From contig CP054182.1 of assembly GCA_015709675.1 (NCBI GenBank), positions 3,017,448 through 3,081,447 of the forward strand: 64,000 bases of DNA, given 5' to 3'. This DNA comes from Ignavibacteriales bacterium (GTDB taxonomy: Bacteria > Bacteroidota > Ignavibacteria > Ignavibacteriales > Ignavibacteriaceae). The translations under genes were made by a program, and so were the position numbers. The notes beneath the pieces were generated by a model that was given only the letters and a program-made list of their open reading frames with translations, was not told where the DNA came from and did no database searches. How positions within the stretch are numbered: position 1 is the first letter of the stretch; every line of letters starts with the position of its first letter. Below are positions 37,496-56,203 of the stretch, piece after piece.

Positions 37496-38074
37496 TTACC
37501 GTTTAGACCATTCCTGTATCAATGCTTCAAGTTCCTGACCGCTTAAATCACTCCGCTCAAACATCTGTTTCACCATCCTCTGCCGTGCTGCTTCATACAG
37601 CATAATGGCCGCGGAGACCGAAACATTCAAGCTCTGTATCATGCCGAACATGGGAATATATACGGTTGAGTCGGCCAGTTTTTCTGCCTCGGCTGAAATA
37701 CCGCGGTGTTCGTTTCCGATTACGATGGCTGTCTTTCGGGTTAAATCAAAATCATAGAAGTTTTTGGAAGTATCATTCAGCGAAGAGGCAAGAATAGTAA
37801 AACCCTGGCTTCTCAGTGTGGTGTAACATGCCTCAACAGTATCAAATTTCTCACGGTCAACCCACTTAAACGCCGAAGCGGATGATTTCTTCCCGATACG
37901 GGGGAATTTTTCATAATTATATATAAGTGAGACTTTGGGCACCCCTGCCGCATCGCAGGAGCGGAGTATAGCGCTTACGTTATGAGGGTCATGTATATTC
38001 TCCAGCACCAGATGCAATGACTGCTGTCTGGTTCTGGCAACACGGGTAAGTTTTTTCAGACGTTCTTCGGTAAT
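37496..38074 (-). CDS. trmH: SpoU-family tRNA 2'-O-methyltransferase (TrmH), likely AUU start
   Basis: A 192-residue SPOUT enzyme if started at the ATT at 38074. Motifs: HDPHNVSAILRSCDAAG, VIGNEHRGIS and MFGMIQSLNVSVSAAIMLYE, the knot that binds SAM; the family methylates G18 of tRNAs. The only other start is a TTG at 38017, but this cuts into the conserved N-terminal helix (TEERLKKLTRVARTRQQS), which in homologues begins Met-x-x-Glu-Arg. The upstream stop is a TAG at 38092-38090 and no ATG, GTG or TTG lies between. A GGAG at 38083-38080 is spaced 5 nt from the ATT. The tail after residue 165 is a short extension. Confidence 0.85.
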   Translation of the reverse strand: MTEERLKKLTRVARTRQQSLHLVLENIHDPHNVSAILRSCDAAGVPKVSLIYNYEKFPRIGKKSSASAFKWVDREKFDTVEACYTTLRSQGFTILASSLNDTSKNFYDFDLTRKTAIVIGNEHRGISAEAEKLADSTVYIPMFGMIQSLNVSVSAAIMLYEAARQRMVKQMFERSDLSGQELEALIQEWSKR

Positions 38075-38083
38075 GGGAACTCC
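38072..38083 (-). promoter_or_regulatory. Ribosome-binding site and AUU start codon of trmH
   Basis: Reading the minus strand: GGAG (38083-38080), a 5-nt spacer TTCCC and ATT (38074-38072), followed by codons for T-E-E-R. The Shine-Dalgarno core sits at an optimal distance from ATT. This supports initiation at a non-canonical AUU codon. Confidence 0.6.
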
Positions 38084-38089
38084 GCGGTT

Positions 38090-38350
38090 CTAAAAAATCA
38101 GACGGTAGTGAAGCGTATTTCCTTCACGTTCTTTCAGGTCAGTTTTTATTTTTTTTGATGGGGGCAGTTTCATATAATAGCGCGCCAGTTCGGTTATCTT
38201 CTCAATAACTTCTTCTTCTGTATGAGCCCATGACTCACACCCCGGCAGTGTTGGTATCTCAGCATTAAAACCATCCCCTTCATTGGTGATTATTAAAGGA
38301 AGAACCACGTAATCAGTAACCTTTGGATTCTTCTCCGGCACCGGAGACAA
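38090..38350 (-). CDS. Solo HicB-like (UPF0150) protein
   Basis: A protein of up to 86 residues with the HicB/UPF0150 fold: [20 protein letters not shown], then [18 protein letters not shown] and a helix ending YYMKL. The C-terminal DNA-binding domain seen in many HicB antitoxins is missing. The first possible start is a TTG at 38350; GTG codons at 38341 and 38308 are alternatives, the last lying just after the deoC stop and giving a protein of about 72 residues. No HicA toxin gene is adjacent. The gene lies between deoC and trmH in an operon of housekeeping genes, so an orphan or retained domain is more likely than an active toxin-antitoxin pair. Confidence 0.75.
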
Positions 38351-49687: not shown

Positions 49688-49920
49688 AAAACTCTGCCTA
49701 ACTAAGCTTACTTTGCGTTTAGTTTGCTGTGTAAGCCGCCTTCAAACTCACCCCCAAACCCCCTCTCTTTCCGTCAAACAATATTCTGGTATTACTACGG
49801 CTTTTTTGAATTATGATAGATTTTCTGTAATAGGAATTGGTTCGGAAAAAGAGGGGGCTTAAAAAGAATTGATTTAAACTCTGCGTAACTTCGCGCTAAA
49901 CTTTGCTTACTTTGCGTTTA
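49688..49920. repeat. Direct repeats flanking an inverted repeat
   Basis: Within the 395-nt gap from 49562 to 49956 there are two direct copies of an element reading aactctgc.taact...cttactttgcgttta (49688-49721 and 49876-49920); the second holds about 12 extra bases in its middle. Between them lies an inverted repeat with 15-bp arms (49759-49773, CCCCCTCTCTTTCCG, and 49843-49857) with one mismatch. No ORF fills the gap. The layout suggests an intergenic repeat or a decayed non-autonomous element; outside it the gap holds only the terminator at 49608. Confidence 0.6.
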
Positions 49921-49956
49921 AAGGTCGCCCCCTGTGAACTCGCCACACACTCTTTC

Positions 49957-50577
49957 TCACTTCGCATTTGATATGGTAAACAATATCTCCCCGCCGTAAA
50001 AGCTCCTTATGCTATTCAGGTTACCATAAATGCTTATTCCGAAACCAAATTCATCTGCGAATCTGAATAACCCATAAACTTGCGTCTGAATACCAATAGT
50101 TCTGAAGGGTTCCGGCTCTTCCCCTCTTTTTATCTTCCCATTTATATAAGATATCCCTGCAAAATAACCTGACATAAACCATTCAGACATTTCTCTCCTG
50201 CCGATGGATATATCATACTCTTCAAATCTGAGTCCGTCCTTACCAACACCTTTGCCAAGCAGACCTCCCCGCCCTAATGCACCCACTTTATAAAAATAAT
50301 CACCTATCGAAAAGTTATAACTAAATGAACTGCTGGCAAACGCTTTCGGATGCAAAAAAATACCTGACGCGAGCCAGTACTTGTAGTCATCAGTCAAACC
50401 TGAATCCGCACTCTCAGAATTTGTATTATTGTAACCTGAGTTCTGATGTGATAGAAAATAGGAATTTTGCATCTTTTCCGGTAACGATTGTGTTCTGCCG
50501 AGATAACAAGTAATGCAGAGAATCACAACGATGAAATTGAGTAGGTTAAAATCCCAGAATAAATATTTTCTTTTCAT
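49957..50577 (-). CDS. Hypothetical envelope protein, possible small beta-barrel
   Basis: A 206-residue protein that I cannot assign to a family. The N-terminus (MKRKYLFWDFNLLNFIVVIL) acts as a signal peptide or anchor, followed by a polar, Asn/Ser-rich stretch (about 40-60). From residue 70 on there are amphipathic strands with Gly and aromatic residues (FSYNFSIGDYFYKVGALGRG, YFAGISYINGK, GFGISIYGNLNSI), which suggests an outer-membrane or beta-sandwich protein. It lies 5 nt after the propeller lipoprotein gene and next to a repeat-bearing gap, so both genes may form an accessory pair. Confidence 0.55.
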   Translation of the reverse strand: MKRKYLFWDFNLLNFIVVILCITCYLGRTQSLPEKMQNSYFLSHQNSGYNNTNSESADSGLTDDYKYWLASGIFLHPKAFASSSFSYNFSIGDYFYKVGALGRGGLLGKGVGKDGLRFEEYDISIGRREMSEWFMSGYFAGISYINGKIKRGEEPEPFRTIGIQTQVYGLFRFADEFGFGISIYGNLNSIRSFYGGEILFTISNAK

Positions 50578-50582
50578 TTGTA

Positions 50583-51869
50583 TTAATACATTTTTCCTAG
50601 TGCGATAAAACCGAGTGAATTCTTATAACCAGCAATAACAACCATTTTCTCAGTTACGTGTAATCCATAGAAAGCAGTACCACTTCCGAATATCCTGTAG
50701 TTTTTCCAACTGACCCCATTAAAATGTGCGACCAGTCCCAGATGACCAACAGCGAATATGTTGTTATGTCCCGTCCCTCTTATTCGTTCACTATATAAAT
50801 AATCAATTTCAGGCAGTAATTTCCATCCATTTTTATAAACATGAACTCCCGACCCGGCTGCATACAAACGCATTTCTGAAGGACCCCATACCGATGTTAC
50901 ATCCAAACTTTCCGGCCATTCAAAATAATTTAATTGATTATCCGCCATAAGGCGAAATATCTTCTTCTCTCCGGTAGTTGAAAGACTATTAGTAGCTGCA
51001 CCGTAAATAATATATCTATTATTTTTATCCCATATCCCGTAAATATCTTGTAAATCAGAATTTACACCACTATTTAGTTTTATCCATGTTCCGTTACGAT
51101 ATTGTGCAAGGTTACCATAGTCTCCGGCTATGTAAAAATTATCAGGAGATGTTCCCCATATTTTATTAATATGAGCTGGGAAATCAATGTTTAACGGAGG
51201 AATTGATTCAAAACGTTTTCCGTTCCATCTGGTTCCATTAGAGAAAAAAATATTATCATGAGTACTGGGATGTAATGATCGGATTTGAGCAAACGAGAAT
51301 CCTTGCTGAGTTTGATATAATATTCTTTTTTCCTCCCACTTAACGCCGTTCCACTGTAATGCATTATGGGAATCGCCATTATAATAGTAATGTCCTGTTA
51401 CCCAAATATTGTTTTCATCAAAGATAAATCCATCATAGAGTATTGCAGTCGGACCACCTGCACCAAATGTCCACGTCTGCCAGGTAAAATTGTGGGAGGT
51501 GGTATCCATAGTTCTCACCTGCACAGTATTGCTTATTTTATCATCCTTACCCTCATAGCGGATTATTGCGCGGAATGAGTAATTGGCGGAGGGTTCTAGG
51601 TCTTCAATAACTAAGAAGGTGTCACGGTTGAGTGAGAGCAGCCGGAGGTGATCTTTGCCATCCATCTGAATTGCCACATTTGCCGGCTGGGTAAGATTGC
51701 TGAACTTAAGCTCAAGCCATACCTCGGTACAGGAGGCATCAAGTGCGGTCAGGGTAATATCAGTCTGCCCATACGGGCTGGCTGGTTCTGAGCAGGAGTA
51801 AGCGGAGAGGGCAATAAGCGAGAGTGCTGCCCAAAGGTGCAGTTGAAGCATAAATTTTTTTTGAACCAT
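50583..51869 (-). CDS. Predicted lipoprotein with Ig-like and propeller-like repeats
   Basis: A protein of 428 residues from the ATG at 51869, chosen over the ATG at 51896 because a strong AAGGAGG lies just upstream. The signal peptide ends near Cys in SAYSCSEP, a plausible but non-ideal lipobox. Residues about 35-125 form a fibronectin-like domain (ITLTALDASCTEVWLELKFS). The rest has repeated W-G-x-S/P and N-x-x-A-G motifs (KIWGTSPDNFYIAGDYG, SVWGPSEMRLYAAGSG, NNIFAVGHLGLVAHFNG), a propeller pattern seen in FCB surface proteins often misnamed glucosyltransferase. Ligand unknown. Confidence 0.72.
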   Translation of the reverse strand: MVQKKFMLQLHLWAALSLIALSAYSCSEPASPYGQTDITLTALDASCTEVWLELKFSNLTQPANVAIQMDGKDHLRLLSLNRDTFLVIEDLEPSANYSFRAIIRYEGKDDKISNTVQVRTMDTTSHNFTWQTWTFGAGGPTAILYDGFIFDENNIWVTGHYYYNGDSHNALQWNGVKWEEKRILYQTQQGFSFAQIRSLHPSTHDNIFFSNGTRWNGKRFESIPPLNIDFPAHINKIWGTSPDNFYIAGDYGNLAQYRNGTWIKLNSGVNSDLQDIYGIWDKNNRYIIYGAATNSLSTTGEKKIFRLMADNQLNYFEWPESLDVTSVWGPSEMRLYAAGSGVHVYKNGWKLLPEIDYLYSERIRGTGHNNIFAVGHLGLVAHFNGVSWKNYRIFGSGTAFYGLHVTEKMVVIAGYKNSLGFIALGKMY

Positions 51870-55609: not shown

Positions 55610-55633
55610 TTCTCGTTAACTTAAGACTTGTAT

Positions 55634-56188
55634 AGACACGCCGCGGCGTGTCTCTACGAATGTATTGTTCTGAATCCGGAGGATTCACAGATTGGTAGAA
55701 ACATATGTACCAACAAATCCAAAAATGAACCGCGCTAGCGGTGACCGACTAATAGAAAACAAATTTACCAACCCCACCCTTGAATCGCGTTAGCGGTGAC
55801 CCATTAATAATATCTCTCAAAATAAAATCAATAAACCCGCAGCGCGGGTGACCCATTTCTCAATCCATTATTTGGATTTTACCTAACATTTACATTTGAT
55901 GAGACACGCCGCGGCGTGTCTTTACGAACGCATTGGTAATGAATCCGACGGATTCACAGATTGGTAAAAAATATGTACCAACAAATCCAAAAATGAACCG
56001 CGCTAGCGGTGACCTATTAATAGAAAACAAATTTACCAATCCCACCCTTGAACCGCGTTAGCGGTGACCCATTAATAATATCTCTCAAAATAAAATCAAT
56101 AAACTCGCAGTGCGGGTGACCCATTTTTCACTATATATTTGAGTATTACCTAATTTATAAATTTGTACAGACACGCCGCGGCGTGTCT
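55634..56188. repeat. Tandem array of REP-like hairpins (two ~268-bp units plus a third head)
   Basis: The 594-nt gap between the convergent aminotransferase and yjbQ genes is filled by a tandem repeat with a 268-bp period. Each unit has five dyads: a 20-bp perfect palindrome (55634-55653, 55902-55921, and again alone at 56169-56188), GAATCC/GGATTC (55672, 55941), CCGCGCTAGCGG (55730, 55998), YCGCGTTAGCGG (55785, 56053) and AYCCGC-type AYYCGC/GCGGGT (55835, 56103). The last three dyads share the 3' tail TGACC. Single-base differences between units keep the stems. I see no protein gene. Not a CRISPR array: the period is too long and there are no spacers. Confidence 0.85.
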
Positions 56189-56203
56189 CTACGAATGATT
56201 ATC

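Follow-up and report, generated by a model that had tools for sequence, protein, structure and literature searches.

The window analysed here, a stretch of 64,000 nucleotides of an Ignavibacteriales bacterium whose genome is a single contig of 4.2 Mb, carries a gene for a TrmH-like protein and raises the question of where the translation of this gene begins. TrmH is a tRNA (guanosine-18 2'-O) methyltransferase. On the minus strand, the 5' region of the gene reads TAG (38092-38090) AAC CGC GGA GTT CCC ATT (38074-38072) ACC GAA GAA CGT CTG, and the frame remains open for 197 codons past the TAG. An earlier reading of the sequence alone (hereafter the sequence-only reading) had claimed that no standard start (ATG, GTG or TTG) lies between this TAG and a TTG at 38017, and that the ATT is preceded at 5 nt by a GGAG. 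Both statements are borne out by the minus strand: the trmH frame contains none of the three codons between the TAG and TTG 38017-38015, and the five bases TTCCC separate the GGAG (38083-38080) from the ATT. The 3' end of the host 16S rRNA was found in the genome (CACCTCCTT) and its terminus, TGGATCACCTCCTT, includes the anti-Shine-Dalgarno. Folding of the RNA around the trmH start is nothing out of the ordinary (z 0.25). We consider it very probable, from the comparisons presented below, that translation of trmH begins at the AUU (38074-38072), a codon with which bacterial genes seldom start; it would be a weak start disfavoured by IF3 and located by the GGAG; this start is deduced by exclusion of the other candidates. 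The features of the locus are listed in Table 1.

Table 1. Features of the trmH locus, in coordinates of the window
Feature	Position	Strand	Basis or remark
ATT, proposed trmH start codon	38072..38074	-	no standard start; five genomes share ATT or ATC in this column
GGAG, Shine-Dalgarno five bases before the ATT	38080..38083	-	kept in the sister species; 16S 3' end
trmH coding region, ATT to stop codon	37496..38074	-	frame and domain/model matches
Small hicB-like ORF upstream of trmH, ending with TAG 38092-38090	38090..38350	-	5' end uncertain
TTG, first standard start in the trmH frame, read as a conserved Leu codon	38015..38017	-	Leu in 137/142 relatives; CTG in the sister species

The product harbors a SpoU methylase domain (PF00588, 128.3 bits for a cut-off of 29.7). 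The best of 11 models is NCBIfam NF008295 (TrmH) with 182.5 bits, under its equivalog cut-off of 227, so that the name TrmH is given by best match only and the substrate is putative. Position 2 of this model aligns to residue 7 of the stop-to-stop frame, which makes the ATT model position 1. The proposal that the ATT lies where homologues have their Met therefore holds for NF008295, as well as for 9 of 40 genomes of the same class outside the order, where the start falls in the ATT column. It does not hold for most of the order itself, where 111/139 genomes have their nearest standard start four codons before this column.

The count for the order comes from a survey of its 164 genomes, of which 148 have a trmH match. 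Start regions were scanned in 145 of them (the contig begins at or inside the gene in G116, G092 and G051) and scored in 144, the contig of G128 ending short. A standard trmH start is present in 139/144 genomes, most relatives using an upstream GTG, ATG or TTG, and absent in 5/144. The sequence-only reading had advised looking up the codon in relatives: all five genomes without a standard start have ATT (the host, G000, and G084) or ATC (the sister species, G001, and also G021 and G083) in exactly the same column. ATT, ATC or ATA also occurs in this column in 14 of the 139 standard-start genomes, where it is a plain Ile codon except in G007 and G082. These two members of one genus (loci L108 and L193) have a TTG directly before the ATT or ATC of the start column, and their trmH was counted as having a standard start. 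A tree was built from the TrmH proteins of full length (57 sequences), with the N-terminus removed. On it the start label needs three changes, at least two of them forced by well supported branches, and the five genomes thus represent only about three independent cases. Outside the order, none of 40 genomes of the same class, picked from the matches mostly for short upstream open frames, lacks a standard trmH start.

The first standard start in the frame is the TTG at 38017, from which a protein of 173 residues would be made. This alternative is extremely improbable, since such a protein would lose Arg10, Lys13, Arg21 and Gln22, which are encoded in the segment from the ATT to the TTG and are found in 142, 128, 140 and 142, respectively, of 142 relatives (the 144 scored genomes of the order minus the host and the sister species); Thr7 of the same segment is shared by 114/142. 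The conserved N-terminus thus reaches upstream of the TTG, as had been supposed. The TTG column is read as Leu nearly throughout (Table 1), and in the sister species, which has CTG there, the first standard start is located even further inside.

This sister species, a metagenome-assembled genome (Ignavibacteriaceae bacterium isolate SJ115, locus L035) with a TrmH protein 92% identical to that of the host, harbors an ATC in the ATT column, preceded by GCGGAG and a five-base spacer as in the host. Its trmH frame contains no standard start, although the upstream stop is 25 codons off. A single base change would be enough to give the host gene an ordinary start, and the ATT might therefore stem from faulty sequencing, or mark a decaying gene that has lost its start recently. 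The former is unlikely because the separately assembled sister has ATC, and decay is at odds with the intact frame and the 92% identity of the proteins; with three further genomes in the same state, having ATT or ATC and no standard start, we regard this explanation as highly improbable.

Another non-standard codon could serve instead, either the GTT two codons upstream of the ATT or the CTG five codons inside. A precedent for such a codon is the GTC start of sigR in Streptomyces (PMC5472188). The sister species, in contrast, has GCT and CTT at the two positions, and neither codon is seen again in the remaining three genomes, while all five share ATT or ATC; the probability of this alternative is very small.

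The proposed AUU and AUC starts also differ from the standard ones in their Shine-Dalgarno sequences. Matches of four or more bases at working distance precede 5/5 of the ATT or ATC starts of trmH versus 28/139 of the standard starts, each of these genes being represented by its best candidate, and the duplex energies range from -5.2 to -7.1 kcal/mol in the five genomes versus a median of +0.4. Fisher's test gives a P of 0.0005 with genomes as units; with the three lineages as units, the probability is roughly 0.2 cubed, or 0.008. The host match itself comprises four bases only, and Ile is an ordinary residue of the ATT column in some relatives; both points count against the AUU start. With the standard starts excluded, a CTG at the TTG column of the sister and ATT or ATC accompanied by a Shine-Dalgarno in five genomes, the AUU start put forward by the sequence-only reading is well supported.

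In 142/144 genomes of the order, trmH is directly preceded by a small hicB-like gene. The Pfam family HicB_lk_antitox matches the host ORF only below its cut-off (E 0.001). In standard-start genomes, the distance from the stop of this gene to the trmH start is -4 in 43/137 and -1 in 24/137, with a median of -1, and falls between -10 and 30 bases in 122/137. Such common overlap or abutment suggests translational coupling of the two genes. In the AUU and AUC lineages, trmH lies a bit further from the hicB-like stop (15 bases in the host, 17 in the sister, and 7, 9 and 7 in the other three) and has a Shine-Dalgarno. In the host, the trmH frame continues that of the hicB-like gene after a single TAG, and a fusion of the two proteins through readthrough of this TAG or frameshifting might be imagined. 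Such a fusion is hardly credible, because the frames are out of phase in the sister and only two of the five genomes have them in phase, leaving no shared route by which they could be joined.

Initiation at the AUU would then proceed as follows. The GGAG five bases upstream would place the ribosome on the AUU, probably with the help of ribosomes completing the hicB-like gene, whose stop is 15 bases away. As AUU is weak and discriminated by IF3, the level of TrmH would be low, and lower still when IF3 is plentiful, as expected from established IF3 biology; insertion of Met at the AUU, the low output and the discrimination by IF3 are all predicted in this scheme, and IF3 control of the host gene is plausible by analogy. 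In most relatives the upstream start overlaps or directly adjoins the stop of the hicB-like gene, usually with no Shine-Dalgarno, and in about three lineages it appears to have been replaced by AUU or AUC with a Shine-Dalgarno a few bases past that stop. The pattern is seen by comparison of the genomes and the direction of the change is the one that we infer from it. That a few relatives, some close and some less so, also begin trmH with AUU or AUC suggests a benefit of the weak start and not an accident. A broader proposal, which we advance only tentatively and consider improbable, is that trmH and infC form an IF3-controlled set in several lineages of the order, with AUU or AUC and an own Shine-Dalgarno arising about three times in place of the hicB-like coupling, tying tRNA methylation to the level of IF3.

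The lack of a standard start was also looked for in other genes. No case was found among rpmI, rplT, pheS, folD and trmD (0/30 genomes each), nor among the hicB-like genes (0/142 scored loci; 146 loci were matched, a few genomes twice, and 4 were cut by the locus end). The gene infC behaves differently, with no standard start in 27/30 genomes. The three remaining genomes were not counted as lacking one: G009 has an upstream TTG, and in G028 and G030 a TTG lies a few codons into the gene and an ATC immediately precedes the aligned part. The infC start is ATC in the host, the sister and G021; in the host (L080) it follows AGAGGT and no standard start is present, as expected of infC. ATC in the absence of a standard start is likewise found in the infC of G084, and no infC was found in G083.

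Known genes of this kind offer several points of comparison. The infC gene, coding for IF3, starts with AUU, AUC or AUA and is autoregulated by IF3. The trmH gene resembles it in its AUU or AUC start with a Shine-Dalgarno, the host infC itself having ATC without a standard start, but the state is near-universal in the order for infC (27/30) and rare for trmH (5/144), and the putative feedback of IF3 on trmH would not be autoregulation. The pcnB gene of E. coli also has an AUU start and, like trmH, belongs to the RNA-modifying or RNA-processing genes, although enzyme and lineage are unrelated.

Repression by IF3 of starts other than ATG, GTG and TTG has been demonstrated for Streptomyces sigR, where the protein decreases with additional IF3 and increases in infC fidelity mutants (PMC5472188). 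As proposed for trmH, the non-standard start belongs here to a gene that is not infC; the sigR start is GTC rather than AUU or AUC, the gene codes for a sigma factor, and the effect of IF3 is tested there and predicted for trmH. The cvfC1 (AUU) and ccpN (AUA) genes of S. aureus have conserved non-standard starts that, combined with strong Shine-Dalgarno sequences, reduce initiation and lower reporter output (PMC13009471). The conserved non-standard start and the compensating Shine-Dalgarno are shared with trmH, but the latter is long and extended in S. aureus versus four to five bases in trmH, and the S. aureus starts were mapped by ribosome profiling, whereas that of trmH is proposed from sequence. 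A close parallel is the pncA gene (bbe22) of Borrelia burgdorferi, also an enzyme gene with an AUU start, whose protein is listed in databases in a form shortened to a later standard start; the gene is unrelated and its start was proven by genetics, biochemistry and structure (PMC13398362). Moreover, extra IF3 in E. coli also inhibits re-initiation without a Shine-Dalgarno (PMC2268962), and the coupled trmH of the relatives could thus be IF3-sensitive too. The AUU-start trmH is best read as belonging with infC, Streptomyces sigR, Borrelia pncA and Staphylococcus ccpN and cvfC1.

In the open-licence literature on trmH or on Ignavibacter start codons, no report of a recurrent AUU or AUC start of trmH was found, and what is new here is that such a start, accompanied by a Shine-Dalgarno, apparently recurs in about three lineages. 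These lineages would represent a natural experiment on the evolution of weak starts, and trmH a case in which to test whether the level of IF3 governs genes other than infC. The start annotation of trmH would also be corrected in these genomes.

Finally, the window was compared with the sister species, where 55 of its 60 long ORFs were comparable. Leaving aside ORFs truncated at the end of the window or of a contig, overlaps with neighbours and stretches leading to a shared standard start, three ORFs stand out: trmH, prfB and the ORF 49957-50622. The latter, on the minus strand, has an ATG at 50577-50575 in the host and an ATT in the sister, with conserved adjacent residues. It may represent a second ATT start in the genus, judging from this alignment. 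This result counts against a special place of trmH, as start changes of this type may occur in other genes of the genus too. The number of synonymous changes located upstream of the first starts of both species does not set trmH apart from the other window ORFs (2 versus 0-1, a range that excludes the ORF 1-1116, cut by the window edge), and the case for trmH consequently rests on conservation across the order. The prfB gene (57696-56614, minus strand) harbors CTTTGAC at 57667-57661, the known +1 frameshift site of the release factor 2 (RF2) gene. In addition, short stretches around 49864-49923, 51455-51846, 55624-55746 and 55994-56203 match many contigs of the sister and are dispersed repeats.
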